Shown here: one piece after another, positions 5,993 through 60,891 of the stretch
Position numbering within the stretch: position 1 is the stretch's first letter
How the letters are laid out: every line of letters starts with the position of its first letter
DNA from: Effrenium voratum
Lineage: Eukaryota > Sar > Dinophyceae > Suessiales > Symbiodiniaceae
Direction: 5' to 3'
Assembly (NCBI GenBank): GCA_963377175.1
Contig: CAUJNA010001213.1
Span: 1,076,944 to 1,140,943 of the forward strand
DNA: 64,000 nucleotides
Notes under the pieces: generated by a model
Database searches by the model: none
What the model was told of the DNA's origin: nothing
The model's input: only the letters and a program-made list of their open reading frames with translations
Program-made: the position numbers and the translations under genes

Positions 5993-6145
5993 CTCACTTC
6001 CTGAGTTCATGAACCTTAAACTTTTTGGGAAGACCATTTTAGTTTGGGCCATCCACTTTTGTAGACTTTTTGGGAAGTTCATGAACTTTTTGGGTAAATT
6101 ATAAAGTTTGGACTTTTTTTGGGGGCCATCCGCTCGGCAAGCGAG
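5993..6145. repeat. MITE-like element, family C (TGAA duplication)
   Basis: Starts CTCACTTCCTGAG and ends CTCGGCAAGCGAG, an imperfect inverted repeat. The flanking 4 bases are TGAA on both sides (5989-5992 and 6146-6149). The interior has the family phrase GAACTTTTTGGGAAG, here partly duplicated, making this copy longer than the usual 100 bp. It ends in AG immediately before an exon-like island. Confidence 0.7.
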
Positions 6146-6261
6146 TGAAGGCCAGCGCCCATGGCGCCGAAAGCCTCGGCTTGGCCCTCGCGGAGGCCGA
6201 GGAGCTGGAGGCCGCCCTGGCTGAGGGCGCGGAGGGTGTGGAGGGCTGCGCCTGCCAATCC
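6146..6261 (+). CDS. Exon-like island, Ala/Glu-rich helix
   Basis: GC-rich and open in frame 1, predicting KASAHGAESLGLALAEAEEL and more Ala/Glu repeats, a helical composition unlike the flanking DNA. It begins directly after the AG end of a family C element; a GT lies at 6262. No homology recognised. Confidence 0.35.
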
Positions 6262-6998
6262 GTTCGCACCACTGGGACGCCAAGGGAAAGCCATGAGGTT
6301 TGCTATGGTTTTTTTCAGGGGAATCGAATCATCCCGAATCCCATGGTTTCTCAGATGGTGCAGAATGGAGTTCGCAAATTTATCGCAGTAGACGCCCAGT
6401 ACGCCCAGTGGCCAGATGCGCAGGCGGTTCTGCTATATTCCTGAACGGGGAGTATCGTAGGCCTATAGAAACCTGCTTTACTCTCTTGGTAGAACCAACA
6501 GTCAGCTCGGGTTGTGGACGCTGCTGGGTTCTTGTGGGGTCAAACGGAAACCAACATGGTAGAAAACATGTTACTACTGAGAGACCCCTTCAGCCTTCAG
6601 CTGCTATGTTTCCTCACGCAGAAAGACAAGCCCACGTTTAAATTAGTGGCAGCGATCCCCATTCACTCAGGGCCATTCAATGGCAATCCGTAGTCCTTGG
6701 GATTCGAATTTGTTTTACACTTGAAGCTTTCTTGCATGTGGAGGTTAAGCAAAGGTATTACGTTTGGCCATAAATAAAGCTTTATGAAATACACTTGCTT
6801 TACACTTGACCAGGCTCAAGCATATTGTCGGTTGCAGGTGTGCAAGATTTGGAACGGCAGTCCCGGGGCTTGCCAAAAAACCAACCGCATTCAATCACCA
6901 CTATTAGTATGACACCCCACAGATTTCGGGGTTCCCTTGTTTGTGTGTGTTTTGTGAGGGTACCTTTTTTTGTGGTTTTAAAAGAAGAAGGACAGCAG

Positions 6999-7173
6999 CA
7001 TTTTGAGGGTACTCCAAAGGGGCGCTCTGGGCCTTCCGTCCACCAGGAGATCTTGCGCCAGCACAGCCAGAGCTGTGGACACGAGGGGCCCGTCCGTCCA
7101 GAAAGCCGGCGGAGCGAGCGGGCGGAAGAGTTGCTCTTCAGATGGGACAAGGACGCTTGGGAAGGGGCCGCAG
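6999..7173 (+). CDS. Exon-like island, charged helix
   Basis: Frame 3 predicts QEILRQHSQSCGHEG followed by ERAEELLFRWDKDAWEG, ending at CAG before a GT at 7174. The 5' boundary is uncertain. Likely part of the same plus-strand split gene as the neighbouring islands. Confidence 0.35.
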
Positions 7174-7603
7174 GTTGATCCTTTTTGTTTTGGGGGGGGG
7201 TTCCTCCAACAGGGGCAGTTTCAATGGTTGTTTGAGGCTTGGTACCCTTTGCGATTGGAATTGAGAGGGAAACCAGCAGCAAACCAGCCAGTTTGAGCGT
7301 TGCCCCATTTAGAGACAAAGCCATGTTGATCCCTCGTGAGCCTTTGAGGGCTTCAAATGTCTTTTTTGGGGGCCACTTCGGAGGTTTGAAGATGTCACGC
7401 TGATAGACGCAATTTGGTTTGAAAGTGTCGCGGAATATGGACCATGCACCACACATTTGCTTTTTTGGCTTGGGGCTGGGAAAGATCCTGAGCAGTTGTG
7501 CTGCGGCCCCCCGTGTTTTTTGTTTGTTGTTTTTTTCCCCATGTTGCTCGGCGGGTTTCAGCACTTTCCTTTTTGTGCCAGGGGTCCTTGGGCAATCGGG
7601 AGC

Positions 7604-7777
7604 CACCTCCCCATTCTTCTCTGTCAGAAAGTTGGCAAGCAACCCTGGGAACATGGCTCACATTGGATCCCACCACAAGAGCATTGATTGTCTTTCACGA
7701 GCCTGCAGGTTCCATGGAATTATTCAATCAGTCTTGAAAAAGGTACCAAACAAGGACCAGAGAGACGAAAACTACGG
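7604..7777. repeat. Interspersed repeat, family G, copy 1
   Basis: About 160-170 bp matching 34782-34937. Shared strings include CAGAAAGTTGGCAAGC and AACCAGAGAGACGA-like ends. No inverted termini seen. Confidence 0.6.
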
Positions 7778-7818
7778 AATCCACCAAAAGCCCAAGCGCG
7801 TCCGGACCCATCTTCTAG

Positions 7819-7921
7819 AGCCACCTCTCCCCGTGAAAGGCGAGCGCCTTGCCGCTTGCTCTCCGAGGAGGAGCAAGCGGCGCGACAAGAGCTGGCCGGG
7901 CTGAAGAGCAGCATGGCGCAG
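7819..7921 (+). CDS. Exon-like island, coiled-coil type
   Basis: After a CTAG acceptor, frame 2 predicts LLSEEEQAARQELAGLKSSM, a clear amphipathic helix. It ends at CAG followed by GC at 7922, matching the GC donors used in the nucleotidase gene further right. Confidence 0.45.
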
Positions 7922-7998
7922 GCGGACTGCCCTCACAGTAGGATGGTTTCGCGAAATCCATTTGCTTCTCGCACCATTCAGACACCAACGGAATTTCA

Positions 7999-8112
7999 TC
8001 CATTTGCGGAAAGGAATATTTATTTTTCACCCTTTTTTCCCCCGTGTTGGCTTTAGAGGAAATCTATCACTACTGGACATGTTTTTTTCCAGGGGGCTGA
8101 AGCAAATGGAAG
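7999..8112. repeat. MITE-like element, family B
   Basis: Begins TCCATTTGCGGAAAGGAAT and ends GCAAATGGAAG, inverted with respect to each other. The centre has the family B phrase CTATCACTACTGGACAT followed by TTTTTTTCCAGG. Confidence 0.6.
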
Positions 8113-8543: not shown

Positions 8544-8640
8544 CGCACTTCCTGAGTTCATGGACTTCAGCTTTTTGGGACAGACATTTCAGTGGCAAGT
8601 TCAACCTTTGGACTTTGGGCCCATCAACCCAGGAAGTGAG
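8544..8640. repeat. MITE-like element, family C (AAAA duplication)
   Basis: Begins CGCACTTCCTGAG and ends CCAGGAAGTGAG. AAAA flanks it on both sides (8540-8543 and 8641-8644). The interior has TTTGGACTTTGGGCCCATC, as in other copies. Confidence 0.7.
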
Positions 8641-11230: not shown

Positions 11231-11329
11231 GTAGCTTTGTTGGCTTTTTTGGTTGGGAGGGCAAGCCCCTACTAAAATAGATTGCAGAAAGAAGGGTACC
11301 CTTATTCTAACCTCTCTACTGGAGGACCT
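11231..11329. repeat. MITE-like element, family A, 5' end degraded
   Basis: Contains the family A core (CCCCTACTAAAATAG, GGGTACCCTTATTCTAACC) and the 3' end CTCTACTGGAGGACCT. The 5' inverted repeat is not intact. Confidence 0.6.
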
Positions 11330-12838: not shown

Positions 12839-12958
12839 CTCAGTCAGTGGTCCAAAGCGAATCGACCTTTTGACCTTTTGGTTTCCCCATTTTGGTCCAT
12901 GTTTAATACTTGTCCCAAAAGGTTAACATGTTGTTTCCGGGTCCTTTGGGCAACTGAG
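12839..12958. repeat. MITE-like element, family D
   Basis: Begins CTCAGTCAGTGGTCCAAAGC and ends GTCCTTTGGGCAACTGAG. The interior shares CGACCTTTTGACCTTTTGGT with the copy at 59702. Flanking 4-mers do not match exactly. Confidence 0.65.
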
Positions 12959-13393: not shown

Positions 13394-13524
13394 GTGGGGG
13401 GACGTGAACGTGGGGAGGTACATGATGAACTTCCATTTTGCTTGGGATTCGGATAGTTTTTGTTACTTTTCTGTTTGGTTTTAAAGGGAATCGATTTCAC
13501 TGCTGGAAATTATGTTATTTTTCA

Positions 13525-13632
13525 CCAGTAGTGCCCTTCTTAACCCCTTTTTTGGTTGGGAGGGTTCCCCTACTAAAATAGACGACTGATAAAAGGGTAC
13601 CCTTATTCTAACCTCTCTACTGGAGGACCTAG
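13525..13632. repeat. MITE-like element, family A, joined to a family B fragment
   Basis: Starts at CCAGTAGTGCCC and ends CTACTGGAGGACCTAG. The first CTAGGTCC bases are missing; the left end runs straight into a family B-like fragment (about 13474-13524: GGGAATCGATTTCACTGCTG). Confidence 0.65.
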
Positions 13633-18867: not shown

Positions 18868-18983
18868 GTTCATGGTTGTCGTTGGGAAACATTTTACATT
18901 TTTGCTTATTGTGGTTTCGTGGGAAATCCCCACTTAACTGCTAAAAAATATTGTTTTGCTCCCCTTCCAACGTCAAGCAAGTA
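18868..18983. repeat. Interspersed repeat, family E, copy 1
   Basis: About 116 bp sharing TTTTTGCTTATTGTGGTTT, CCCCACTTAACTGCTAAAA and CCTTCCAACGTCAA with copies at 51927 and 53687. Confidence 0.65.
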
Positions 18984-19842: not shown

Positions 19843-19963
19843 CTAGGTCCCCCAGCTAGGTGCCCTTTTACCGTTTCTTTTTTTGGTTGGGAGGGTTCCC
19901 CTACTAAAATAGACTACAGAAAAAAGGGTACCCTTATTCTAATCTCTCTACTGGAGGACCTAG
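19843..19963. repeat. MITE-like element, family A, full length
   Basis: Begins CTAGGTCCCCCAGCTAG and ends CTACTGGAGGACCTAG. Flanks are TAAG and TAAT (one mismatch). Confidence 0.8.
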
Positions 19964-20832
19964 TAATGCCAGTCTCTTGGGGGTTGGTTCAAGGGAAAGC
20001 AATGGGGAACCCGTCGTTTTTTATTGGGATGGATGGGGTGTGGAGGTCCGAATTCCCGATTTTGGACGGACTTGCTCAAATGGTGTTGTACATGCCTTAA
20101 GGGGGGCTTTCGGGGTCAAGCCTCATTCACCCAAGAGAGGCTGCCAAGCCCTTCAGATTGGAAGCCAGCAAGTTGCGGGGAGAGGCACTCCACAAAGGTT
20201 AATTCTCTACAACGAGTGGCTTTTCGATCGGATGGTCAATTCTTGGAATTGGGTGTGATGAACCAAGGCCCTCCCCAACAAAGTTGCCCAAGGGTCATTC
20301 CCCATGCACCCTGCGCCCAATGAAGAACCCTGACCAATTCCTCAAGGGCCCTCAAAAACAACCCACGTTGAGGGCCCAAAATCAATCAGGGCCCGGGTGG
20401 ATAGTTGGCAGAGAAACGCTCCAAAAGCAAATCCTGAAGCTTCCCCACTCGAAGTTCGACTCAACACGGGCCGACTCGGCCATTCCCTCGGCTGTGATTC
20501 CCGTACCCAAAACGGGCAGTAGGTTATAAGGTAAGGATGTAGGCCCGTGTTGCAAGTATGGGAAGGGGGACACCCTCGTTGCCATATTTGTCCATGGTTT
20601 CCTGCACCCTCCAAGGGTTGACAACCCATTTGAACTGATGTGCCCTTGATTTTAATTTACGTGTCCAAGGATCCTATGGAGTACCCGGCTTGTTGGGGTT
20701 AGACAATGCTTCATGGCGACTCCGGCATACTCCGGCGCATCCTTGGTAAACAACTGGATTTTATTGGAAGCTATTTAGTTGTTCATTTGAAACTTGTGAA
20801 AACCAGTTTCAGTGTTGCTCGCCGGGAGAAGG
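19964..20832. other. Non-coding stretch left of the complete copia element
   Basis: Only the family H repeat (about 20285-20390) is recognised here. Confidence 0.5.
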
Positions 20833-20837
20833 CCGAC
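20833..20837. repeat. 5-bp target site duplication, left (CCGAC)
   Basis: CCGAC directly precedes the 5' LTR and is repeated exactly at 27957-27961. Five bases is the usual copia duplication length. Confidence 0.9.
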
Positions 20838-20934
20838 TGCATGAAGATGAGCATGCATCAGGCCATTTGGCTATGATCAAGTATATGTATCTGAAGCCGT
20901 GGAAAATCAAGGTCGTGCGTCATAGGTTTTGTCA
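20838..20934 (+). repeat. 5' LTR, 97 bp
   Basis: TGCATGAAGATGAGC at the start, GGTTTTGTCA at the end, with a TATA-like GTATATGTAT in the middle. Base for base the same as 27860-27956 by eye. Very short for a copia LTR. Confidence 0.92.
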
Positions 20935-22301
20935 TGGTAGCGGAGCTGGCATCTGGTGCCGGCTCCCGTTCTGCATCTGCGAGAGGCAAGGCCTTCCTGC
21001 GCGAGCAATCTGCAGAGGTGATCATCCTGGGACACCGGAATTTGGGCATCAAACAGGTGTCGGCCAGGGTCTGCAGTTGGCAAGCAGGCATCTTTGCAAT
21101 TTTGGTTGTGCTTCTGGCGGTGATCTTCGATTGGTATATGATGTCAGGTACCGGCGATGGGTCAGGCCAGTTGGGCGCACCGGACATGGCTCAGATCGCG
21201 GCGATGCTGCAGCAAATTGCACAGGAGCAAGGGAATCAGCGGCAGCGTTTAGATGATCTGGGACAAGCAGCGCAGGGGACGGGAGCGGCAGTTCATGTCA
21301 CACAGCAAGTGACGGAGCAGGTGGTGGCTGAGGTGGTACAACAGGTGCAGTCGGGTTTTGCGCGTGAACAGCAGCAGCAACAAGATCAGCTGACACAGAT
21401 GATTCAGGCGCATCAGGCTACACAGACACAGCTTCAGCATATGGGTGCATCACTTGCAGACACGCAGAACCGGGTTGGCCAGGTATTTGCAAGTGCAAGC
21501 GCTGGGGCAGGTTCAGCACAGGGCCGGGCGGCATCCGGAGATTCGAGGGGGAGTCCGACAGCACAAGCAGATGGTACAGCTGGGCAAGGTACGGTGCGTC
21601 CAGCACCGCCTTTTTCGGGGCCGGTTGGAGGTGGGCCCAGGGTGTACAATATCGGAGGAGGCAGCACGGGCGCGTCGATGAGTCCGGCTGTGGCATATGC
21701 GATTCAGCAGGGAGCGGTAGACGGTCGTTCGTTGGGGAAACCAGCAATTTTCAACCCGCAGGATAGCAAGGTGTCATTTCAGGATTGGACAGATTCGGTT
21801 ATTACACTGTGCGACAGCAGCATGCCGGGTGTTTACGAGGTGCTGGAAGATATTGTTCACAAGCAACCCAAGGTGAGCATGGACCTCAACAGCATCAAGA
21901 CCCTCTACGAGCACATGGATCAACTGCTGTTGGAGTATGCCAACACGAACGTGTATGCTATTCTTTCTACGTACACATCGGGCGAAGCAAGGAGTTTGGT
22001 CCGGCAAGCAAGGCGACCGAACGGATTTGAAGCTTTCAGACTTTTGCAGGTGAGATTCAACCCGGTGACGATTGGACGGCAGAGAGCTCAGTTGATCAAG
22101 ATCACCAACCCGCAAGAGGGCATCTCACTGGACAAGCTGGCAGCTGAAATTGTGGCGTGGGAGAATAGGATCGTGGACTATGAGAGCCGGCCAGGAGCTG
22201 AACGAGTTTCGGATGCTATGAAAATGGCAGCGCTTGTTCACATGAGCCCCCACAAACTGCGAGAGCATCTTCAACTCAATGCTGGGCGCTACGCATCATA
22301 G
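20934..22301 (+). CDS. Gag polyprotein
   Basis: 455 codons from an ATG formed by the last LTR base and the first two bases of the primer-binding site. Residues 49-67 are a strongly hydrophobic segment (GIFAILVVLLAVIF). If translation instead starts at Met69 or Met70 (MMSGTGDG), this segment is absent. Residues 80-180 are Gln-rich helix, followed by a Gly/Ser/Pro linker. From about residue 240 (GKPAIFNPQD, FQDWTD, YASTYTSGEARSLV-like region, RFNPVTIGRQRAQL) the sequence is a copia-type capsid region. It stops at TAG right after GRYAS. The family continuation (ELREEVFSYLDQ) follows at once in frame 2, so one base is probably missing; no typical -1 slippery heptamer is seen. Confidence 0.85.
   Translation: MVAELASGAGSRSASARGKAFLREQSAEVIILGHRNLGIKQVSARVCSWQAGIFAILVVLLAVIFDWYMMSGTGDGSGQLGAPDMAQIAAMLQQIAQEQGNQRQRLDDLGQAAQGTGAAVHVTQQVTEQVVAEVVQQVQSGFAREQQQQQDQLTQMIQAHQATQTQLQHMGASLADTQNRVGQVFASASAGAGSAQGRAASGDSRGSPTAQADGTAGQGTVRPAPPFSGPVGGGPRVYNIGGGSTGASMSPAVAYAIQQGAVDGRSLGKPAIFNPQDSKVSFQDWTDSVITLCDSSMPGVYEVLEDIVHKQPKVSMDLNSIKTLYEHMDQLLLEYANTNVYAILSTYTSGEARSLVRQARRPNGFEAFRLLQVRFNPVTIGRQRAQLIKITNPQEGISLDKLAAEIVAWENRIVDYESRPGAERVSDAMKMAALVHMSPHKLREHLQLNAGRYAS
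20935..20949 (+). promoter_or_regulatory. tRNA primer-binding site, probably initiator Met tRNA
   Basis: TGGTAGCGGAGCTGG follows the 5' LTR with no gap. Its complement ends CTCCGCTACCA, fitting the 3' end of an initiator methionine tRNA, the usual copia primer. The matching host tRNA is not in the window. Confidence 0.7.
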
Positions 22302-22304
22302 AGC

Positions 22305-23374
22305 TCAGGGAGGAGGTGTTCTCATATTTGGATCAGGTGGCGCCGGTTGCACAAGCAGCCATGGACATCGGATCTGTCGGTGTGGGGAAAGGCGGAGGAT
22401 GCTTTTTGTGTGGCGGTCCGCATTTGATGAAGGACTGCAAGGGCAAGGGCAAGGGCAAGAACGGTGGAGGAGACAAAGGTAAGGGAGGCAAAGATCATGG
22501 CAAAAAGGGGAAATTCAAAGGAGGTGGAAAAGACTTTGGCAAATCCAAAGGTGCTGGGAAAAAGGGGAAAGATGCGGTTTGCCACAACTGTGGGAAACCG
22601 GGGCATTTCAAGGATCAGTGCTGGTCAAAGCCCAAAGGTTTGAATGCGGTGGAGCAGAAGCAAGACCCCCGTCTTTCCCAGTTACAGTCAGCATATGCCA
22701 AAGCAGCTGCAGAAGAGTTCCAACGTATGACAACTGCAGCACCGACTTCGACAGCTCCCACATCACCTGTGTCTCCGGCATCAGTTCGCAGCGCAGGCAC
22801 AGGATCAGCGCGAGCGAGTGGCAACCCGGTGCAGATGGGCAGTTTGGTGGTCAAACATTTGTGCGCGCTTTCTAGGAGGTGGTGCAATCAGGGCAATTGG
22901 GGGACTACCGCGACATCTGCCTATGGTGATGAGTATGTAGGGACGCGTGATATTCTGGTCACTCTGGATAGTGGTGCGGCGGCATCCGTTTGTCCTGCAA
23001 ATGCTTTTCCGGAGAACGAGCAAGAGGCGCCGGACCCAGGTATGAATTTTCTTTCAGCCAATGGTGAGATGGTTCCTGGGCTGTGGAAGGTGAGCCCACT
23101 GGTGATTACGGAGGAGGAGCAGATTCGGACCACGCAGTTTTCCGTGGCGGAGGTTCACAAGCCTTTGATGTCAGCAGCTCAGGTGGCGAACAAAGGACAC
23201 CGTATTGTGCTCGAGGCAGCAGACAAGGAGAGCTACATTGAGGATGTGGTGACGGGTGAGCGCATGAGGCTGTATCAGCGTGAGGGTGTCTATGTGCAAC
23301 GGCTGAAGGTGGTGGATGGTCAAGACGCGGGTTTTGGCGGGCAGGCAGGTCGGGCGGAAGCCGAGAGCATGTGA
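22305..23374 (+). CDS. Nucleocapsid zinc knuckles and aspartic protease
   Basis: Frame-2 continuation of Gag (first in-frame ATG 22316). Two zinc knuckles: CFLCGGPHLMKDC (Cys29-Cys41 from that ATG, spacing C2C3H4C) and the standard CHNCGKPGHFKDQC (Cys89-Cys102, C2C4H4C). A Gly/Lys-rich tract lies between them and probably binds RNA. The protease active site is LDSGAAASV with Asp218, the copia-family DSGA. After it come the usual strands (NFLSANGEMV, PLMSAAQVANKGHRIV). The frame ends AEAESM-stop, and the integrase part goes on in frame 1. Confidence 0.88.
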
Positions 23375-23799
23375 GAAGAGGTGAGCCCAGCAGTGCTGTA
23401 AGTCCCGGTGCAAATATTTGTGCAGTGCAAGCCGAGGGCGGTGGACAGTTATCTGCAGAGGGCCGAGACGATGAAGAAGACAATCGGAGTGATTTGTATC
23501 AACCCACTGAGCGAGGTGATGACGATGGTGAAGATCTGTTGTTACATCTTGCAGAATTGGGTGATGCAGCAGATGAGTTTCCCGGTGATGGAGGTGGAAT
23601 GCATGAGGAATTTGAGGAGGACTTGGTTCGGCTGGGACAAAAGACGCCCATCAAGCCAAGCGCAGAAGAAGTACGGCAACACTACATCAGTCATGTTCCT
23701 TATCGGGCATGGTGCCCCCACTGCACGAGAGGTAAAGGTAGATCTTTACAGCATTCAATTCGTTACCACTTCTGGCAATTTTGGATGAGCCGTCGATGA
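23371..23799 (+). CDS. Acidic linker and integrase zinc-binding domain (frame 1 segment)
   Basis: An acidic region (DDEEDNRSD, DDDGEDLLL) is followed by EEVRQHYISHVPYRAWCPHC, the copia pre-integrase HHCC zinc motif, and TRGKGRSLQH. The last dozen codons (from about 23757) are out of frame with the integrase core. Position and content show it is the N-terminal part of integrase. Confidence 0.75.
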   Translation: MRRGEPSSAVSPGANICAVQAEGGGQLSAEGRDDEEDNRSDLYQPTERGDDDGEDLLLHLAELGDAADEFPGDGGGMHEEFEEDLVRLGQKTPIKPSAEEVRQHYISHVPYRAWCPHCTRGKGRSLQHSIRYHFWQFWMSRR

Positions 23800-24509: not shown

Positions 24510-24570
24510 CCTGCAGATATCGAGATCGAGGTTCCCGATGTTGGTGCAGGTGATGGAGACGAGCTGAAAG

Positions 24571-42200: not shown

Positions 42201-45200
42201 CAAGTTCCTGTTGTGCGCAAGTTGAAGTCACGGATTCTGATTTTGTCTATAGGGTGTAGTACGGCTGTAAAGGGGAAACACTCGATGCCTTTGTTTGGTT
42301 TGGTCAGCACAGTTACAGGGAAAGAAAGACCGACAGTCAGTGAAGTGTGTGGCTCGCCCCAGCCTTAAGCTGGCAGTGCTAGGCTAGGAAAGTAGACAAG
42401 TTCGTGCAGCAAGCTTGTGTCCTGAATACCCCCGAATAAGACTACTGCCGAGCTTGGCAGGGAGTCAGCCAGTTTATCGCTTTAGAATTTGCCCATTCAA
42501 GCAGTTTTGCAGTGTGGTTCTCACGTGTGGCTGCTTTAGGAAGCTATGTACGTGCAGAGGGCGTAGTCCATTGATTGCGATTCCTGGTCCGTTCTACGTC
42601 CCACCAAAAAGACGCTATACCAAAGGCTGCGTCGGGTTCGAAGTGAGGCGACTTTCCACCGTGGCTGGTGTCCCCGCAACTGGCTGGAGAGGAGTGCAGG
42701 CCGGCGATTGATCCCTTCTTCCAAACCCTTTGACCTTTTGGTTTCCCCTTGCTGATCCTATGTTGTTGTGTTTCTTTTCCCCGGGTTCCTTGGGCAACTG
42801 CTAAACTTGTCAACCTCAGGAGCAAAGCCCCTCAAAGTTGTTGTTGGAAGCATCAAGCAAAAGTCAACTTAGGTCTTGAGAGAAACCGAGAGTCCAGAAG
42901 ATAGGATCGACGGTTGCAGTGGGTTAGGGACACGTAAACGCTTGATCAACTTAAGAAGGTATGTGCTTTTGAGGGTACGTGTTTTTTGGTTGTTTCAAAG
43001 GGAGACCAAGAGGACAAGTAAACAGTGTAGCGTTTTCTTGGTTTGGCACATGCTTGGCTAGGACCAAAGTATCATTTGAGAAGCGACGTTTCGCCTTCAA
43101 ACTCTTGGTGTTTACCTCTCTCTTTTTTAGGTATTCTTTTCCCAGCAAAGTGCCTTATTTATTCGGCAGGCCTGTGGATAGACATCCGCTTCGCGCCAGT
43201 TGGGGTTGTCTGACTTCATGTTTAGTCATGGCCCCAATGGTTATGTTCTTTCTAGGTCCATTGGGCAAGCGAGTTGTGGTTTATAACAGCAGAATTCATC
43301 AATATTAAGTAGTGCAGGATTCTGTCCACCATGTCTTCCTCCCGGAGTTCTTGAACATTTTTTAACCTTTGGTAAGGTGAGGCATTGGTGGGAAGGTCGC
43401 ATAGCGTTAGTGGCTCAGGTTGGCCGGATCCGGCATCCGCTGCGTTCAGGGCATTCAGGGGTAGACCAACCAGAATTCTGAAAATATGATTTTCTAGTAT
43501 CCTTCGGGCAAGACAAAACTGTTTTTTTCACAAAGCCATCACCCCCCACTTTCTTCACCGAGCGGCTGGGTCAGTGTCCTCTGATGTCTCAAGCCACCTA
43601 AGCTGACTGCAGGGGTCCGGGCCACGAAATCGGCCTTTTCCAGCAAGCCCCTCGTAGGTAGCGTTTTGCGGGGCTGAATGAATGGAGCTATTCGTGGGTC
43701 CAGGAAGTTCACGGCTCGGGGAGCCGGCAGTGAATGGCTTGTGGATGGCTGATTCTTTAGGTGGCAATCCCTTACTCGAATCTTGGGGCCTTGGCAATGG
43801 GCGAAGAGCATGTGGGTGAAAAACTGGCAACTTCTGGCTAAACGCGAGGCAGCCGATGGAATACAGGTTCTATTGCCTCACCTCATGAGTTTCTGGACTT
43901 TAAGCTTTTTTGGAAGACCATTCTAGTGGCAAATAACATATGTTTTTTTTGGTGGGGCCATCCACTCGGGAAGTGAGTATTGCAGGGTCAGACTTCAATG
44001 TCACTGTTAAGCACCTAAAGTAATGATATCACCCGAAGGTTCAACCAGTTCCTTGGCCAAGGTTTGTACAAGCTTGGGCCAAGCATTTACAGAGAGTCCC
44101 TTTGCGGTCCTCGCACGGACGGCACATGGGTCAACGTTAGTTCAGCAATTTTCACACAGGCTCGCGCTGGCGATTCGGCCTCATGAGGCGCCCAACACCT
44201 TTTTGCGATTGGACAACCACATGATTTTTGGCTCCCCGCCAATCAATGGCTAACGTCATGTGTACCCTGACAGTCTTCCCCTAGCCGAAACTACGACATC
44301 ATACTGCCCTTGTTTGCCACAGACCACCGCAACTATGTACGGCTATATGCGGGTTACATAATACAGTGGCGGCGTTTTAGTGCACTCTATTTATTATTTG
44401 ACTCGGGCATGGCGACTGAAGCCAAATGTCTTGGCAAGGCCATTCGGCGATGGCCCATCTTCCCATTTGCGGCTTGGACCGGACGCTGGTGTCAAGGAGT
44501 TGCCAACGTTAGCACACACTAGGCCGAGAGTCCAGCCAATGTACACACGGGTTATTGCAAGTTGGAATGCAGTACCGGCGCAAGTTGCAGCGAGTTGCCT
44601 TCAGCAAAAAGCGGTCGCATGTCATGAAGGTTCTTGACTAGCATAAGCTTGTTTTGAGCTTTTGAGGTACATTTGGTACCTCTAGGCGGACTTTTACAAA
44701 TGATGGTGGGAGAACATGTTGGGCTCGTTCCAAACAGAAAGAGCTCCAAAGTTGGATAGTTTGTCTAGTATGCCTTTAGCTTATCTCATGTGCGGTACGC
44801 CTCAGTCAAACATATGTCAATCATCATGTTTTTGGAGGGGGCGGGACCCCTTCAAAGCCAACCACAAGTAAAAGAGTGCCCCACCGCCACACTGGTCTTA
44901 GATGTTTTGGGAAGTTGTGTGTTTTTTCCATTGTACCTGCAACTTTTTGTAATCCGACCCCTGACTAGTTGCCCCCCCCCCCACTTATAATTCATATTTT
45001 GGTGTGGGTCAAAATTCAACCACCAGGTAACCCCAGGTTTTAATCCTGGGTTCCATTTACCAGGGTTCCATTTTGGGTTCCCATTTTTGACCCACAGCCA
45101 TTTAGGATGCTCACGTGTCCAAAGCCGACTTTTTGACCTTTTGGTTTCGGTCCAGGATGATTGAGCAGCTCCTTTCTGAGTGGTCCTTTTCTTCCATGAG

Positions 45201-48133
45201 CACCTTCCTGAGCGGCGGGAACTGTTGTTTGCTTCGGGCGGCAACATCATAAGGTCAACCCGTCCTGACCATTTTTTCCAGACCGCAACAACTAGGTCTC
45301 CCAGTAGTGCCCTTGAACCCTTTTTTGTCCCCTACTAAAATAGACTACAGACAAAGGGTACCCTTATTCTAACCTCTCAACTGGAGAACCTAGACGAGCA
45401 GACTTCTCAAAAGGCGAGGTTTTGAAGGAACCTTTCGTGGCCTCCTGGCCCGGGGTGTCTTAGGTGCTGCGGCTCCATGATCAAGTATTTCGCTGTAGCG
45501 GCCGGGAGCCATTGCGGTTATGCCCCTTTGGCAGCAAGAAGGGCGTACGGTTGCGACGGTTTTCAATTGGAAGGATCCTTGGGGATCCCTTTCATTTGGT
45601 TGAAAAGCACTTAATGTGCAAGGGAACCAGGAAATCCTCAGATATACTCTCTCTTTTGACAATGGCTTGGTTGAGCATGTCTTTTCTCAGTCCCCGAGTT
45701 CCCGTGTTTTTTTTTTTGAGAAGACCTACAGCAAACAAGGGTACCCTTATTCTAACCTCTCTACTGGAGGACCTAGTTGCTGATTAATATGGGTGTCTTC
45801 CCCTCCAAACATGATGCTTCCAATGTGGGGGTGTCCATTTCTGGGTGAAATGTGGGGGAATCAGACCACTTTTGGAGGGGCCCCCACCCCCCCGTTCATA
45901 AACAGGGGTTGATTAATCTGGGGTCAACATTAGAGTTGGCAATTGCCAGACGAAACCCAAAGGGGTTTGGGTCATCTGTTCTTTTCTGACCTAGTCAACA
46001 GCCAGATGCCTGCATAATGGGTAAAGCCTGTGGCAGGAGGGCCTTGGTGAAAGGCCGAATGTTGACCCCGGATTAGTAAGTTGTGTGAACGACAAGTCTA
46101 GGCTTTGGGCATTTGCCCGATCAACTACAGTAATAATTCGGGTCACCAACCTATTGGGGCACACCTTCCCCAACCAACTAGCCTAGTTAGGCCTTCAGAG
46201 GCTCATAAGTAGTCTTGTAAAATGTGTGTGTGTGTACTTCTTACTTCCATGCCCACCAGACAACTCCAGGGTGTGTGATTTCTATTTACCCCCAAAATGG
46301 TGGTGTTTCTCCTCTTGGTTTCCCTTCAAAGCCACCAAAAATAAGGGGGGTCCCCAAAAACCTTCCAACATGGAAACCCACAAGAAGCCGGGACAAAAAA
46401 TGAAACACTAAAAAAAGAAAAGAAAAACCTTCAGCCGGCAGCTTCGTTGATTTGTTTGTCTTTCCCCCGAGCATAGGTCCAGTATGAGGAAGACCTGAAG
46501 ACCTGGGACCATGCCTGCGTCTCGGCGCCCATGGATGCCATGAGAAGCTCCCCTTCTGGGTGCAGAAAGGGAGGGACTGGTCGCCCCGAAACGCGCTGGA
46601 AGGTTGCCCGCCACCGCCATGCACCCTAGACCCTCCATCCACTCACTCAGACCCTCCATCCGCCCACCTAGACACCCCATCCATCCACCCAGACCCTCCA
46701 TCCGCCCACCTAGACATCCATAGCAATCCACCATCCATTCCCCCGCGTGTCGCCCCAAAAACACTCGCAGGAAGATTGCGCTAAACCAACCTGTTGATGT
46801 TCTCTCCAAACGAGCCTAGGTCAACATATGCAGTAGTCCATGGTCTATTTCCGTTGGGAGGAACATGAGGAAGAGAGAGGGAGGAGGAACACGAGGGGAC
46901 TCACAGATTTTCCCACCAACAAGCCACACAACTCACTAGTTGTCCCATGCCCAGTATGGGAGCCGTATCTTCTGACCATATATTGCAGGGTCATGCCGCA
47001 ATAAATTACCCATATGTTTTGCCCGGGTTGGTGCATGGATGTGTCTTTGAAAGGGGTCACAAGCTAAGGGAGCAACAGCTTGCGACTTGTGTTTGAGTTG
47101 TTGCATAGGCTCCATTCAGCCGTTGGTTTCCAGAAATTGAGTTGTTTCTGTTGATGCGGACCGATGGAATGATGCCGGGTGCAGCGACCCGTGGCCAGCC
47201 GAGCAAGCAAGCGAGCAGCAACCCAACAACCAAGAAACCCAACAGCCAAGCAAGCAAGAAACCCAACAACCAAGCTGACTCCGCTGACTGGGCATAGCGG
47301 GAAAGGCGGCATCCAGGCGTGCTTGTGAACAAACCGTTTTCTTGTTTGACCGTCGAATCGGCAGCTTTGATTGAATACATGAGGTGTATGACATGCGCTA
47401 CTAAACACACAAAAAGAAACAGGTGTCCCGAAAAACAACGGTTTGGCACGGACAGAAACATGGTTTTGCAAGATGTTCGTTTGCGTACGGTTTTTTACGG
47501 TGTTTGTACCGAAGTATGCGTTTTTGTTTTGTTTTCCTTTTTTAAGACGGGTCGTTTACGGGTTGTACGGGTCCATGTTCGGATAAAAACTTTAAAACAA
47601 AAAACAAGAGAAACATAGAAGAACCAAAACGACGTTTCCTGCCAGAACCAAGTTTTTCTCAAAAAGCTGACACGAATCCTAAATCATACAAAGGATCCCG
47701 AGCCGTGTTTGACTCCCGTGAGCTGAAAATGGTGGTGTGGGGAAATCCATGATTCACCAAAAGTTGCCTAAAGATCCAAGCAATTAGCAGCGGCTCACAG
47801 GAACCCGCAGGAACCAGCCCATGTTCCCCGAGACAAGCTATCACGCCAGGTCTTGTCTGAAAGCCGGGCGAGGAGATAGGGGAGAAGGGTTGAATGCCAT
47901 GAAAAAACCAGGCTAAGAGCAAATGTCCAGCGACCCCCGTTGTGACCAAAAGAGACAAAGAAGCAAACATCAAAACAGGTTGTTTGTGTCTGACTTTGGA
48001 AGCCTGAGGTAGAAGCATGTTTACCACGGGCATGCATAAGGTTGGTCTAGGCTGTGTGCCTGCTCTTTTTACCCGTATGCAGCCGAAGGCGGCGTGATCT
48101 GCGTGCAAGAGTCCGGGGGGGAAGTCACGGATG
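30104..48133 (+). CDS. HAL2: Split gene for 3'(2'),5'-bisphosphate nucleotidase (HAL2/SAL1/BPNT family)
   Basis: Nine exons on the plus strand, listed separately, read in order as one IMPase-superfamily protein. They give an N-terminal helix, STPVTAADYAIQ, FPSDRFMGEED, AAVDAGVETDKGQRRVW, VLDPIDGTKGF, a KGCG...PSDG strand, TWDHA and VICVQESGGEVTDG. These hold the metal-binding positions of the family: Asp of AADYA, Glu of GEE, both Asp of DPIDGT and Asp of WDHA. Such enzymes turn 3'-phosphoadenosine 5'-phosphate into AMP and protect sulfate assimilation and RNA processing. Phase agrees across most junctions. Missing are the exon or exons between 40879 and 46477, and the C-terminus after 48133 (a candidate lies near 52850). 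Introns are 0.7-5.6 kb and full of repeats. Confidence 0.85.
30230..32940. other. Intron of the nucleotidase gene, first part
   Basis: Includes a TA-rich microsatellite (about 31541-31573). No other exon or named repeat family recognised. Confidence 0.45.
31541..31576. repeat. (TA)n microsatellite
   Basis: TA dinucleotides with a single interruption. Confidence 0.9.
32941..33044. repeat. MITE-like element, family C
   Basis: Begins CTCACTCCCTGAGTTCCG and ends CTACTCGGCAAG. The interior has GAAACTTTTGGGGTTTGG. Flanking 4-mers do not match. Confidence 0.55.
33138..33213 (+). CDS. HAL2: Nucleotidase exon 2
   Basis: After a GTGTCAG acceptor: VAPASAGKELEACYVTAGVA then VKEGE. It supplies the segment before the TPVT motif. 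The 3' boundary is unresolved: keeping frame into the next exon needs one leftover G, leaving a non-standard GG donor. Confidence 0.6.
34011..34080 (+). CDS. HAL2: Nucleotidase exon 3 (TPVTAADY motif)
   Basis: After GGCTCAG: DSTPVTAADYAIQGLVSATL then KR. This matches the HAL2 block SPVTTGDYAAQ, whose Asp binds metal. Ending at 34080 with a GC donor gives an exact join (LKRLFPSDRF) to the next exon, the same spacing as in yeast HAL2. Confidence 0.85.
34173..34278. repeat. MITE-like element, family C (TTAT duplication)
   Basis: Begins CTCACTTCATGAGTTTTC and ends CCACTCGGGAAGCGAG. TTAT flanks it exactly on both sides (34169-34172, 34279-34282). Lies in the nucleotidase intron after exon 3. Confidence 0.8.
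34782..34937. repeat. Interspersed repeat, family G, copy 2
   Basis: Matches 7604-7777 over about 155 bases, with scattered differences. Confidence 0.6.
35463..35524. repeat. Short tandem repeat, about 21 bp unit
   Basis: Three adjacent units of the type GCAAAACGAGCGCAAATAT. Confidence 0.7.
35739..35853 (+). CDS. HAL2: Nucleotidase exon 4 (GEE motif)
   Basis: After CTGTAG: FPSDRFMGEEDATDLREDPD then LCEMALDARRDERSTYGK, ending before GT at 35854. MGEED corresponds to the HAL2 VGEES block, whose Glu is a metal ligand. Ends in phase 0. Confidence 0.85.
37244..37261. repeat. Long C tract
   Basis: About 17 consecutive C bases. Confidence 0.8.
37739..37852 (+). CDS. HAL2: Nucleotidase exon 5
   Basis: After CTGAAG: VDWDSQCSAFRGGPMSRDIF then LAAVDAGVETDKGQRRVW, 38 codons, phase 0 at both ends. 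The next bases are GC (37853-37854). GQRRVW lines up with the GR-W just before DPIDGT in the family. Confidence 0.8.
38555..38698 (+). CDS. HAL2: Nucleotidase exon 6 (DPIDGT motif)
   Basis: After CTTTCAG: VLDPIDGTKGFVTGEGYVIG then LALLVDGEPIVGVMGCW. DPIDGTKGF is the diagnostic motif that separates 3'-nucleotidases from ordinary inositol monophosphatases, and its Asp residues bind metal. The 3' end is set at a GC donor (38699); a GT donor at 38705 also keeps phase. Confidence 0.92.
39465..39530. repeat. Family B fragment
   Basis: TTCCATTGGCTTAAGAATTTG then CCTTGTTGGCTTTAG, resembling the left half of family B. Confidence 0.4.
40148..40259. repeat. MITE-like element, family A, full length
   Basis: CTAGCTCCCCCAGTAG to CTACTGGAGGACCTAG. 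Flanks are ATGT and ATGC (one mismatch). Confidence 0.8.
40605..40715. repeat. MITE-like element, family B
   Basis: CTTCCATTTGTTTAAGAATA at the left and CGCAAATGGAAG at the right, inverted. The centre is GGGAATCTATCACTACTGG. Lies just before nucleotidase exon 7. Confidence 0.7.
40798..40879 (+). CDS. HAL2: Nucleotidase exon 7
   Basis: After CGGTCAG: VKGCGLRWWPSDGPMARVEP then SEPEWSA, followed by GC at 40880. It corresponds to the HAL2 strand AVRGLGAFYSPSSD. Joined to exon 6 it reads LLCR-VKGCG, close to the family. Confidence 0.7.
40956..41071. repeat. MITE-like element, family A (ATTT duplication)
   Basis: CTAGGTCCCCCAGTAG to CTACTGGAGGACCTAG, 15 of 16 positions paired. ATTT flanks it exactly on both sides (40952-40955, 41072-41075). 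The best-preserved copy; 116 bp. Confidence 0.88.
43877..43977. repeat. MITE-like element, family C
   Basis: CTCACCTCATGAG to CCACTCGGGAAGTGAG. TATTGC occurs on both sides (43871-43876 and 43978-43983), longer than the 4 bp of other copies. Confidence 0.75.
45154..45225 (+). repeat. Repeat family F, copy 1, with conserved reading frame
   Basis: About 72 bases similar to 54452-54523. One frame reads RMIEQLLSEWSFSS here and RMIEGLLFEWWLSS there. Fragments of family D lie on the left side of both. Confidence 0.5.
45292..45393. repeat. MITE-like element, family A, full length
   Basis: CTAGGTCTCCCAGTAG to CAACTGGAGAACCTAG. Flanks are ACAA and ACGA (one mismatch). Confidence 0.78.
45712..45776. 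repeat. MITE-like element, family A, 5' truncated
   Basis: Only the right half is present, from about GACCTACAGCAAACAAGGG to CTACTGGAGGACCTAG. Confidence 0.7.
46477..46516 (+). CDS. HAL2: Nucleotidase exon with WDHA motif
   Basis: After GCATAG: VQYEEDLKTWDHA. WDHA is the third metal-binding motif of the superfamily (HAL2: KIWDHAAG). A GC donor at 46517 joins it in frame to the next exon; a GT donor two bases further does not. Confidence 0.8.
46622..46735. repeat. Minisatellite rich in CCATCC
   Basis: Imperfect units of the type AGACCCTCCATCCGCCCACC repeated along about 110 bases. Confidence 0.8.
47195..47277. repeat. AAGC/AACC-rich low-complexity tract
   Basis: Repeats of CAAGCAAG and AACCCAACAACCAAG, the complement-type counterpart of the GGTT tract at 16.4 kb. 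Confidence 0.75.
48083..48133 (+). CDS. HAL2: Nucleotidase exon with QESGGEVTDG motif
   Basis: After TATGCAG: EGGVICVQESGGEVTD, equivalent to VIVHEAGG-TDA in HAL2. A GT at 48134 is the likely donor. The loop after WDHA appears about two residues longer than in yeast. Confidence 0.8.
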
Positions 48134-51100: not shown

Positions 51101-51694
51101 CGCCGGTGCGGCGCGTGGAAGAGAGGGTTCGCATCCCCCTTGCCCAAGCTGACGTGGTGACTTTTTGTTGACTTGTCCCTTGGTGCAAATGCTGACTTGC
51201 TTTCCCTGGTCGTGTTCGTTTTGTTTTGTTGTGCAAGTCTTGGCTTGTTCCCCCTGGTTGTTGTTCATTTGCAGTTAGCCTTTGGTCTCCCCATGTATTC
51301 CCATGCCGGAAGCATGTCAGGTGACAGCCTTTCGTTCAGGTTCTCAACACGCCCTGCTAAGGCGTCATTTAGCATATTCACTAGAAGATCGATCCCTTAG
51401 AGGGTGAAACATATCTTGGATTCCCATGACCAAGGGCTGCTGTTTGAAGCCTTGTTGCCTCAGGTGTGGGCAGCTTATGGAGCCCCACAAACCCGAGTAG
51501 AAGAGATAGTTGTTGGGAGGGCTCCTTCTGGACAACTTGTATCATATACATTTGTGTAGCTCCGAGGGCAAAATGATAGTTGAGGATTCCTTACTTTAGG
51601 TTTGTGAATCAAATATGATGCCCAGAACTCCGGTGGTGCCCCTGCTTTGTCGTTTTGGGCAGTTCTTTCAAACGACCAAATTCTCACTTCCTGA
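48134..51694. other. Mostly non-coding; one weak terminal-exon candidate
   Basis: At 51029-51160 one frame reads APEARLQLEMRRWAKTALRA then a basic stretch and a stop. A CA microsatellite lies at 50887-50902. A CCCTAGGGTTAGGG string near 50425 resembles telomere repeat but is a single short occurrence. Confidence 0.35.
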
Positions 51695-51889
51695 CTAGCT
51701 CCCCCAGTAGTGCCCTTCTTAACCCCTTTTTTGGTTGGGAGGGTTCCCCTACTAAGATCGACTACAGAAAAAAGAAACGGTAATCTCTCTACTGGAGGAC
51801 CTAGCTGAATTCCTGGACTTTAAGCCTTTGGGAAGACCATGATGACAAATGCAAAGTTCAGACATCTCTTGGACCACTCAGGAAGTGCG
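51683..51889. repeat. MITE-like element, family C, interrupted by a family A element
   Basis: CTCACTTCCTGA (51683-51694) continues as CTGAATTCCTGGAC at 51805 and ends CCACTCAGGAAGTGCG. Without the insert it is a normal family C copy; flanks AATT and AACT differ by one base. Confidence 0.85.
51695..51804. repeat. MITE-like element, family A, nested in family C (CTGA duplication)
   Basis: CTAGCTCCCCCAGTAG to CTACTGGAGGACCTAG, 110 bp. CTGA is at 51691-51694 and again at 51805-51808. The interrupted host repeat gives the empty site (TTCCTGAATTCC), so the duplication length of four is direct. Confidence 0.92.
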
Positions 51890-51926: not shown

Positions 51927-52043
51927 ACTTGCCATGGTTGTTGTTGGGACACATTGTACATTTTTGCTTACTGTGGCTTAGTGGTTGAAGTCCCCACTTA
52001 ACTGCTAAAATGTATTTATGTTCCCCTTCCAACGTCAACCAAG
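51927..52043. repeat. Interspersed repeat, family E, copy 2
   Basis: From about AACTTGCCATGGTTG to CAACGTCAACCAAGTT; ends AACTTG and CAAGTT are inverted. Confidence 0.7.
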
Positions 52044-53686: not shown

Positions 53687-53805
53687 ACCTATTTATGGTT
53701 GTTGTTGGGACACATTTTGCATTTTTGCTTATTGTGGTTTAGTGGGAAATCCCCACTTAACTCCTAAAATCTGAATGGTTGCTTCCCTTCAACGTCAACC
53801 AAGTA
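53687..53805. repeat. Interspersed repeat, family E, copy 3
   Basis: Shares GGTTGTTGTTGGGACACATT and CCCCACTTAACTCCTAAAAT with the copy at 51927. Confidence 0.7.
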
Positions 53806-55188: not shown

Positions 55189-55273
55189 GTTCCATTTGCT
55201 TAGGGATTTGTTTGGTTTGTTTTTTTCTACTGGATGTTTTATGTTTTTTCCAAGGGGCTTAACCAAAAGGAAG
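55189..55273. repeat. MITE-like element, family B (CCAA duplication)
   Basis: GTTCCATTTGCTTAGGG to GCTTAACCAAAAGGAAG. CCAA flanks it on both sides (55185-55188, 55274-55277). About 85 bp. Confidence 0.75.
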
Positions 55274-55290: not shown

Positions 55291-55527
55291 CTCACTTGCT
55301 CAAAGCGAGTCGACCTGAAATGACGGGGCTCCTTAAAAGATACATTTTGCCCAATTGAAACATGGCTTTTTCCACCAAAATAAAGTTGGAAACCGCCATT
55401 TACAAGTTGCAATGTTCAGGTGTTTTTCATGTAAGGATCCCTGAAATGACCTCTTGGTTTCCTTGATTTGGTCCATTCGCCAAGGTTCCCAACAAGCTTT
55501 TCTGTCCAGGTCCTTTGGGCACGTGAG
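55291..55527. repeat. MITE-like element, family D with nested insertion (CCTG duplication)
   Basis: CTCACTTGCTCAAAGCGAG to GTCCTTTGGGCACGTGAG. CCTG occurs on both sides (55287-55290, 55528-55531). A 115-bp insert interrupts it. Confidence 0.8.
55325..55439. mobile_element. 115-bp insertion flanked by 11-bp duplication
   Basis: CCTGAAATGAC occurs at 55314-55324 and 55440-55450 around this segment. Its ends (GGGGCTCCTTA and TAAGGATC) are weak inverted repeats. An 11-bp duplication differs from the 4 bp of families A-D and fits a Mutator-like or other element. Confidence 0.65.
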
Positions 55528-58319: not shown

Positions 58320-58462
58320 CTCTGGGCCCGCCGCCCGCCGTCCGCCGGCGCCGCCTCGTTTTGGGTCGAAAGCCCCCGCCTTTCGTTGGCTTCGGAGGCT
58401 TCCGTGGCGGCAGCGCGGCCAGCCTCGCACTGAGCTCCGGGCGCCTTGGCCCAGGTTTTGCG
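58320..58462 (+). CDS. GC-rich exon-like island, frame unresolved
   Basis: Very GC-rich and open in two frames (Arg/Pro-rich or Gly/Phe-rich). It resembles in composition the island at 28477. No product assigned. Confidence 0.2.
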
Positions 58463-58855
58463 TTTAGCTTTTTTTTGTCATTTTCCCTTGTCCCGGTTGC
58501 TCCGTGGTGCCCTTTTTCTTTCTTCCTTTATTGGGGGGGAAGGGACACCCTTTAAAGTCAACCAACAAAAAAGGATTCCGATTCTTTTTTCCCATGGCCA
58601 CTGGGCATCTGAGTTGAGACACTGCTGACACGCTTGCCACTCGTGTTGGAGGGCCTGAGATCCCCTTTGAAACTTGCGATGGTTCTTCCGTTTGCTGAAA
58701 TGTTCATTTCCCCCTGTTGGTATTGAAGCGGGGTATCATGTGGAATGAAAAACATTAAGCAAAACACAACAACAATCACCCTCTAAGGATTGTTTTGTTC
58801 ATTTTCCCCTGGTAAGACTATAGATGCTCCCTTTGGTTAAGACTATAGAAATGGA

Positions 58856-58962
58856 TTCCGTTTGTTTTTCAGCCAAGCTTTTGTGTGTTTTTTTCCCCTG
58901 TTGGTTAACCCATCACTATTGGACATATGTTGCTTTTTCCAGAACACTTAAGCAAATGAAGG
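58856..58962. repeat. MITE-like element, family B
   Basis: TTCCGTTTGTTTTTC to CTTAAGCAAATGAAGG with centre CCATCACTATTGGACATATG. Confidence 0.6.
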
Positions 58963-59701
58963 TAAGGGAGTCGCGGGGCAAGGACCACCCCCTCCCCCCA
59001 CGAAAAAATGAATTCCGCCCCGAAGAAAATCGCCCCGAAGACGCCGAATGAGCCTTTATTGGATTGGTGGGGGTGCGAAATTTGGGGTGCCGCTGACAAC
59101 CATGGGATTGGCTGCTGCTGAGTTGGATCTTTTGACTAACTTGTTGGGACATGACGGTTTGTCCTACTAAACTGCCAAAAACTCTCCCACTTGCCCAGGC
59201 GCCTTTGTTTCCTGTTTTCTGGGAAGGGTTCCCCTTTAAACTCAACCAACCAAAAAAGGCTGGGCATTTGGGATTGAACCATCAAGGCCTATCATTTGGA
59301 GTTGGAGTGTTGGTGTAGGGTTCCCAGCTGCAAAATCGACTATGCGAGAAGTTTCACAAGAAATCAACGTTCCGATGGAAACAAAAAGACAAAGCACACT
59401 CACACGTGGTTGTGGGGAAAACTGATGAGCCTTTCCTTTTTAGGTCCCGTGGCTTTTTGTTTCGCATCAGCAACAGCGCCGTCAAGCTTCATCACTGGAA
59501 ATAGCCCACCTGGTGGAAATGCGCAGATGCCCTGGTTGTTCTGCGTCATTTGCGCCACCGCGTTTTGCGTTTTAAGTTCTTCTTCCACGGCCTCCAGCGG
59601 CTTACCCTCCCTCCTGCTGACGTGGCACCCAGAGGGTCCCAAGAGGAAACTGGAAATTGCCCTCCCACTGGCGCTTTGTTTGTGGGAGGAAGGGGAATCA
59701 T

Positions 59702-59820
59702 CTCAGTTGCTCAAAGCGAATCGACCTTTTGACCTTTTGGTTTTCCCATTCTGGGATCCCATTTTTAGTAGAGGTGCCAAAAGGTTAACCTTTTAGTTCT
59801 TGGTCCTTTGGGCAACTGAG
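59702..59820. repeat. MITE-like element, family D (TCAT duplication)
   Basis: CTCAGTTGCTCAAAGCGAAT to GGTCCTTTGGGCAACTGAG. TCAT flanks it exactly on both sides (59698-59701, 59821-59824). The best family D copy; 119 bp. Confidence 0.88.
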
Positions 59821-59865
59821 TCATTTAAAAGCTTCAACGATTCGACCCATTGCTACCGGTTCGCA

Positions 59866-59991
59866 CTTTTGGCGTCCGAGGGCGGTGATGCTGAGCCCCA
59901 ACTGCACCGGCTCAGAGACGCGTCTCCAGGAGCGATTGCCCGAAGACCCCCGGCGAGAGAGTTCGACGCAGACCTTTTCGGGCTGCTTCAA
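59866..59991 (+). CDS. Possible terminal exon
   Basis: The frame reads ALLASEGGDAEPQLHRLRDA then SPGAIARRPPAREFDADLFG and LLQ-stop (TAG 59989-59991). GC-rich relative to flanks. No family recognised. Confidence 0.35.
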
Positions 59992-60855
59992 TAGCCAGAA
60001 TGATCTGTGTTATTTCCTGGTTTAAAGGGAATCTGCCACCGGAAGTAAGTTGTTTTTCGCCAGGGGACGTATTCGCCAATGGGGGAAAGAAGCCTCCGGA
60101 AAGTCAAACTTGTCCCGTGAAATCCGAGTAACCTTGTGAAATCCGAATAGGTCCAACAGCTGCTTACTCCTTGACTCACTTCCTGACATTCTGGACTTGA
60201 TACGTTTTGCGCAGACCAGTTTTGTGGAAACGTCTAGACATGTCTTATCAACTGAGGAACCGAGGTCAAATCCCAACTCCTCACTTGTTAAAGTAGTAAG
60301 TATACTTTTTGTTCATCTCTCCACCCCCTCACTTTTGGAGCCCCAAATGAACCACCTCAATATGTGAGCAACAGGCAATATTAGTGGAAGTCTGTTGTTT
60401 CATTTGGAGTGGACGTGGGGGGACGACCCAACACCCCCATTTTCGCAAAAATTGGAGGCCTGCTGCTCATTTGAACCAACTGAGTCAACTGTGAGTAATA
60501 TTGTCCGTGGCTCATATAGATTGCCTTTTGGAGGTGTACAATCTGAGAACCCTATGCTGCCTGTTTGCTTGGCTTCGGGCTTGTGCGGGGGCGTACCCCA
60601 AAAAAATAAGCAGCACGGAGCATGCGGAGAAGTCCTGCTTTGCGTTACCAAGGAGAGAACACGTCCCCTTCAGTTGGCAAGCCTTTGCGTTGGTGATTCG
60701 AGCAAAGGCCCTAAGCAGTCACCGCCCTCAGAGCCAGAGGTGTCTTCCCTTGTCCAACTTGTGCAACAGAGAGACGGGCATGGATCAATCCGATCTGAGT
60801 ATTGGTTTCCGGGCGCATTCAAAGTGAGTTTCTGTTGGAGGCGACGTTTAAGGGC

Positions 60856-60891
60856 GAGGTCCCCCAGTGGTGCCATTTTACCCTTTTCTGA
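60856..60891. repeat. Family A 5' fragment
   Basis: GAGGTCCCCCAGTGGTGCC then TTTTACCCTTTTC, the left end of family A only. Confidence 0.55.

Follow-up and report, generated by a model that had tools for sequence, protein, structure and literature searches.

Family-specific orientation lock in introner-type miniature transposable elements with CT...AG ends and 4-bp target duplications

Introduction

Among described systems, the introners of Symbiodinium microadriaticum come closest to the elements treated here. They are flanked by 4-bp duplications, have inverted repeats and carry their own 3' splice site, and the 5' splice site is taken from the duplication (Gozashti et al. 2022, PMC9860276, Fig. 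2B legend and adjoining portions of the text). We describe several families of miniature inverted-repeat transposable elements (MITEs) of similar design in a 64,000-nucleotide stretch of the Effrenium voratum assembly (C1213:1076944-1140943, plus strand; hereafter the window). They have 4-bp duplications and inverted repeats as well, and they end in AG where the published introners have their own 3' splice site. Full-length copies of family A in the window measure 102-121 bp, compared to 115 bp for a published example (PMC9860276), and the host probably belongs to the same or a related algal group. The elements therefore appear to be of the same kind as the S. microadriaticum introners, a likeness drawn from description and not from sequence. 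As far as the consulted portions of that paper go, the published introners are introns in genes, whereas the copies here rarely have duplications starting with GY, and an orientation lock is not mentioned there. A strict, family-specific orientation lock is the unusual feature of these otherwise ordinary introner-type MITEs, and it adds to an initial annotation of the window, which described four families and did not mention a common direction.

Introner elements of Amoebophrya and other dinoflagellates are likewise short and MITE-like with inverted repeats and direct repeats of 3-5 bases but, in the text portions used, they are defined by their position in annotated introns, unlike the copies here (PMC7789003, PMC10666404, PMC11453091). 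Duplications of about 4 bp have also been described for piggyBac, Ginger1, Ginger2, some PHIS elements and IS481EU; of these, piggyBac has CC..GG ends and IS481EU TNT..AYA ends, compared to CT..AG ends and no fixed target here (PMC10045372, in part). The suggestion of the initial annotation that the families may form an undescribed group is thus unsupported as far as their kind is concerned, since introners with 4-bp duplications and other 4-bp superfamilies have been published. piggyBac elements target TTAA, and Ginger elements end in TGT..ACA. Membership in piggyBac was rejected due to the CT..AG ends and the absence of TTAA among the 35 exact duplications, and membership in Tc1/mariner due to duplications of 4 bp instead of TA.

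Results

Element families and their ends

The assembly searched comprises 1,155,904,702 bases in 3,699 contigs. Families were defined in a pooled sample consisting of the first 62,200 bases of the window and 20 stretches of 10 kb from contig C3 (180,498 known bases), in which clustering after masking of tandem repeats resulted in 22 clusters with at least four members. Sampled loci carry L-numbers (L031-L050 on C3, L051 on C8), and elements were counted as hidden Markov model hits, so that a broken element such as the C element at 5993 may count twice. Families A, B, C and D of the initial annotation are four of the 22 clusters. The F16 consensus (CTTACC...GGTAAG) follows the common plan, the F3 consensus fits it with its right end ...CAACCAAG and has CATGG at the left, and F17 probably belongs to the same class. 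The families are thus alike in design and not in sequence, as had been noted, and there are more than four of them.

The elements are MITEs with CT...AG inverted ends and 4-bp target duplications: they are short and non-coding, occur in many copies with the same ends, and combine terminal inverted repeats with a target duplication of fixed length. The A end, CTAGGTCCCCCAGTAG, has 14 matches in the window with up to 3 mismatches, compared to a mean of 0.34 and a maximum of 2 in 100 shuffles. For the C end 14 matches were found with up to 2 mismatches (shuffles: mean 1.89, largest 6). Genome-wide, the A end with up to 2 mismatches is matched 20,648 times in forward and 21,206 times in reverse direction (41,854 in total), compared to 309 + 340 = 649 matches for the reversed control pattern. 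Since both ends of one element can match, A elements are fewer than these matches. The pattern was absent from viral contigs.

Target-site duplications

An unbiased search for inverted-end pairs (length 50-260, 11 of 14 bases matching) in bases 1-62,200 of the window detected 39 pairs starting with CT. Exact 4-bp duplications flank six of them, where 0.17 are expected (p about 2e-8), while 3-bp or 5-bp duplications flank none and a 6-bp duplication flanks one. The six other start dinucleotides printed gave 0-2 exact 4-bp duplications. All eight duplications quoted in the initial annotation are present: ATTT and CTGA (A), CCAA (B), TGAA, AAAA and TTAT (C), TCAT and CCTG (D).

For each family, the matching of flanking 4-mers at full-length copies was compared with 1000 shuffles of the right flanks among copies; some of the rows counted per family represent one copy read from two overlapping loci. 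Exact duplications were found in 15/50 rows for A (a further 23 with 3/4 matching; shuffle mean 0.50, max 4), 6/13 for C (2 with 3/4; mean 0.07, max 1), 4/9 for D (1 with 3/4; mean 0), 6/15 for F3 (1 with 3/4; mean 0.12, max 2) and 2/6 for F16 (1 with 3/4; mean 0). Family B is weakly supported, since its 2/13 exact matches (5 with 3/4; mean 0.15) do not exceed the shuffle maximum of 2. F17 has one full-length row only. The deduplicated set covers six families; with 30 bases of flank required, it holds 99 unique full-length copies. Exact 4-mer matches flank 34 of them, and matches of at least 3/4 flank 62.

The target at these 62 sites is weakly symmetric (about CC-TWWA-GG), with C at the two bases before the duplication (0.34, 0.39), T first and A last within it, and G at the two bases after it (0.40, 0.39). 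Other families in the same DNA behave differently. Exactly 2-base duplications were found in 6/8 rows for F5, 5/10 for F6, 3/5 for F13 and 6/29 for F0; those of F6 and F13 are TA or other 2-bp duplications. The duplication of F12 is unclear. F8, with ends of the CAGGG...CCCTG type, has a 5-base duplication in 4/11 rows and a 6-base one in another.

Orientation of the elements

In the window and the 20 stretches of C3, families A, B, C, D, F3, F8, F16 and F17 together have 144 plus matches and 1 minus match (A 35/1, B 26/0, C 21/0, D 18/0, F3 20/0, F8 10/0, F16 7/0, F17 7/0), the sole minus match being a 50-base A fragment with E 4.5e-4. F17 was assigned to these locked families solely by its split and its CT start, and leaving it out gives 137 to 1. 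The window by itself has 34 plus and no minus matches. As an internal control, F0, F5, F6 and F12 in the same sequences have 71 plus and 76 minus matches. The two groups, drawn up after their splits were seen, differ with a Fisher p of about 3e-27. Families omitted from this tally are F9 (9/1), F10 (10/0) and F15 (7/0), whose ends or duplications are unclear; F11 (5/3), F14 (4/3) and F18-F21 (4/2, 3/3, 3/1, 3/1), to which no duplication length was assigned; and F13 (7/1; 6/1 in a second count), whose TA duplication and split fit neither class. F10, about 310 bp long, is probably part of an RCC1 gene array. F0 has more than 100 matches on C3 (48/57 by direction) and none in the window. Repeat pairs within the window, irrespective of family, are 45 direct and 0 inverted at E 1e-4, or 65 and 2 at E 0.01.

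The direction flips block-wise between chromosomal stretches. On contigs C1 and C2, 18 loci have locked matches, 13 of them all minus, 4 all plus and 1 mixed, and in 6/7 loci with more than one locked family the families are concordant. On C8 the A, B and D matches, ten in number and half of them from a single tandem array, are without exception minus, and the single F12 match is plus. Adjacent A ends 1-150 kb apart agree in 71/75 pairs (97 of 100 matches listed), and those farther apart in 3/5; in a second list (74 of 100 matches listed) 16/17 neighbouring pairs agree. The 20 least-diverged A copies (1-4.5%, gaps ignored) all point with their block.

Other causes of the lock were considered. 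Palindrome instability or inversion was rejected because F0, F5, F6 and F12 keep both directions in the same DNA, and a target motif because the target consensus is symmetric. Segmental duplication is unlikely, as flanks and duplications differ between copies. Local duplications do exist, namely a pair at L020 and the array on C8, where five A elements stand in a row about 140-150 bases apart (L051:4648-5328), apparently by tandem duplication of one insertion. As a separate observation, the first exact A end among the matches listed for contig C1 (4.93 Mb), a list apparently ordered by position, lies at 4.39 Mb, and C1:1-4387695 may be foreign or very different DNA.

Strand skew and gene direction

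Blocks of co-oriented genes are established for S. microadriaticum (PMC8110479, in the parts consulted). In the sampled loci outside the window, the AT skew of the element-masked flanks is negative in 25/28 plus loci and in 1/12 minus loci (excluding 6 loci with tied or no matches and 4 overlapping ones). Of the A copies covering more than 60 model positions, 58/64 are concordant with the local skew in sign.

Gene direction was read on C3 and in the window, and on these two contigs it equals element direction; elsewhere the relation is supported by skew. The C3 stretches contain several RCC1-repeat genes that consist of one exon, and some of these begin with a ubiquitin-like portion; those identified are on the plus strand. 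Nine RCC1-repeat open reading frames (ORFs), chosen by length and base composition with only one minus-strand ORF tested alongside, are all plus; they count as one observation, since they form one tandem gene family. In the window, an exon of a HAL2/SAL1-like 3'(2'),5'-bisphosphate nucleotidase with the motif LDPIDGTKGF lies at 38555-38690 on the plus strand (E 7e-11; right boundary approximate). A stretch with the motif STPVTAADY at 33977-34081, also plus, is probably another exon of such a gene (1.5 bits, weak alone; matched stretch only). TIGR01330 likewise matches that frame in two stretches. Starting about 90 bases past the probable upstream exon, the C element at 34173 would lie between the two exons and is probably intronic. 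A different MITE, AGATATGGC...GCCATATCT at 38458-38549, ends 5 bases (TTCAG) before the exon at 38555; it may form or fill that intron and is a possible introner.

A kinase-motif search gave 30 gene strands, with flanks examined for one of them, a minus kinase exon at L052, which lies in a stretch with minus-type skew and has no locked element. Among ten predicted segments, Pfam identified two, namely the RCC1 ORF of L030 and the HAL2-like exon. A codon-usage model with a high cut-off gave 11 segments, most of them on the strand of the local elements (not at L019 and L028), and this result was left unused.

Copies and other features of the window

All copies of the locked families in the window are on the plus strand. 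Full-length A copies lie at 19843-19963 (flanks TAAG/TAAT, 3/4), 40148-40259 (ATGT/ATGC, 3/4), 40956-41071 (ATTT, exact) and 45292-45393 (ACAA/ACGA, 3/4); a further A copy lies inside a C element at 51695-51804 (CTGA, exact). Incomplete A copies are present at 11242-11329 (no left part; model 27-109 of 111), 13523-13632 (without the left 7 model positions), 45721-45776 (right half only) and 60857-60890 (a left fragment, model 3-36, at the end of the range initially annotated). Family C is represented at 5993-6145 (TGAA), 8544-8640 (AAAA) and 34173-34278 (TTAT), each with an exact duplication, at 43877-43977 with a 6-bp flanking repeat (TATTGC), at 32941-33045 with an eroded right end, and at 51683-51889, split by the A element mentioned above.

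D copies were found at 59702-59820 (TCAT, exact), at 12844-12958 with an eroded left end, and at 55291-55527 (CCTG, exact), the last being 237 bp long because an F8 element sits within it (55324-55443; left end CGGGG, 6-bp duplication AAATGA). In both nested cases, A in C with CTGA and F8 in D with AAATGA on both sides, the host sequence resumes on the far side, and the inner copies are therefore insertions and not chance repeats. The B copy at 55189-55273 (85 bp, first base G instead of C) has an exact CCAA duplication, and those at 7999-8112 and 40605-40714 have no clear one. F3, a family of the same class absent from the initial annotation, occurs at 18871-18981 (no clear duplication), 51933-52043 (TTGC, exact) and 53695-53803 (TATT, exact). 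An 83-bp pair starting with CT, CTTGGATTTTCCC at 37645-37727 with GGAA on both sides, has a single copy in the window.

A Ty1/copia-type retrotransposon with an RVT_2 domain occupies 20829-27956 on the plus strand, with 106-bp terminal repeats that are 97% alike; its polymerase has a relative in Durusdinium trenchii (53% over 56%; among the best 120 of 270 relatives). Long plus-strand ORFs (638, 499 and 276 aa) at 482-4985 include several with PGETRG motifs, and neither the 638-aa nor the 499-aa ORF has a Pfam match. The G+C content of the window is 49-55% in 4-kb steps, and neither tRNA genes nor Rfam matches at gathering scores were found in it.

As to the statement that the driving transposase is not in the window, none was seen in a partial scan (six ORFs and six plus-strand read-through stretches with Pfam, three with NCBIfam).

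Discussion

We propose that these families are non-autonomous introner-type MITEs mobilised by a transposase encoded elsewhere, and that their insertion senses the direction of transcription or replication, a reading to which we give an even chance. The transposase would recognise the CT...AG inverted ends and join them to staggered cuts, 4 bp apart, in a weakly symmetric target, and repair of the stagger would leave the target duplication. Within one-way gene domains, such sensing of direction would be the likeliest cause of the lock. In bacteria, the insertion direction of IS200/IS605 and Tn7 tracks chromosomal polarity through replication, and IS200/IS605 lacks inverted ends of this kind. 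The comparison with the lock concerns polarity only. More tentative, and a little short of even probability, is the wider claim that a eukaryotic cut-and-paste class inserts according to the direction of transcription or replication independently of target sequence, with tens of thousands of copies forming a chromosome-wide record of domain polarity. Among the papers listed by literature searches, no title or opening of an abstract reports such an orientation bias; we make no claim that the lock is new to the literature.

Alternatively, insertion could be random in direction and followed by selection against antisense copies, which would bring harmful signals, such as splice or RNA-end signals, into long one-way transcripts. 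This is possible, and we rate it clearly below even. By eye, the A, F3 and F17 consensus sequences and the D copy at 59702 have a branch-point-like CTAAC or TTAAC, a pyrimidine-rich stretch and AG in sense direction, families B, C, D, F3 and F17 have a T-rich sense strand (AT skew -0.10 to -0.38), and published introners carry their own 3' splice site (PMC9860276, in the portions cited above). However, F0, F5, F6 and F12 are present both ways in the same DNA, and antisense insertion as such is therefore tolerated. Selection would further have to find strong antisense harm in all eight locked families, which have no evident internal sequence in common and of which A, F8 and F16 are nearly free of AT skew, and it would have to account for the least-diverged A copies, which are already locked. 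As to the cause of the lock, we lean slightly towards polarity at insertion and away from selection. The reasons are that eight families without evident common sequence are locked and four in the same DNA are free, that the target consensus is symmetric and that young copies already follow the rule, none of which amounts to proof.

If the elements were introners proper, inserted in exons and spliced out, only the spliceable direction would survive. S. microadriaticum, in which the duplication supplies the 5' splice site (PMC9860276, in part), provides a precedent, and 615 A ends are preceded by GYNN genome-wide, a raw count without a total for comparison. Given that the elements end in AG, we take this recipe to require GY at the start of the duplication; GA also serves as donor in Symbiodinium (PMC5177918). 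However, only 1/35 exact duplications starts with GC or GT, or 3/35 if GA donors are counted, and the C copy at 34173 is probably part of an intron instead of forming one. Most sampled copies are therefore not introns by the published recipe, and some may be; as a general explanation, this one is improbable. We consider it most doubtful, indeed very improbable, that copies are made via RNA, for instance by reinsertion of a spliced intron into a nascent transcript. Such a route would fix the direction and yield the lock directly, and reverse splicing is discussed for fungal introners (PMC9860276, in part), but the combination of inverted ends, 4-bp duplication and symmetric target is characteristic of DNA transposition.

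Several points weigh against the explanation favoured here. We know of no eukaryotic family with a strand-sensing transposase of this type. Within single loci of 3-64 kb (354 kb in total, with some overlap), no long element bounded by such ends and flanked by an exact 4-bp duplication turned up. No transposase was found either, although no genome-wide search aimed at one was made. Gene direction is known on only two contigs, plus the minus kinase locus L052, and the codon-usage model for the gene strand was uninformative at the lower cut-off (14 plus and 16 minus segments in plus loci, 10 minus and 6 plus in minus loci). There are exceptions to the block pattern, namely plus A copies at L013 and L019 within minus stretches and minus B matches at L023 and L029 within plus stretches. 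Local skew opposes 6/64 longer A copies, and L013 and L049 among the shorter ones; the six are 7-9% diverged, and only L019 departs from its contig block, the other five lying on C3 where local skew is weak or reversed. F8 is locked despite CA...TG ends and a 5-base duplication, flanking repeats of 6 or 8 bases exist (C at 43877, A in L050 and L023), and the locked and free groups were assembled after their splits had been seen.

Both causes of the lock can be tested with existing annotated Symbiodiniaceae assemblies, and the lock bears on how introners acquire their direction. If it arises from selection, it would indicate a strand-specific constraint across much of the genome. If it arises at insertion, DNA transposons would read a strand-asymmetric process in eukaryotic chromatin and offer a way to study that process, and the elements would mark out the one-way gene domains along dinoflagellate chromosomes.

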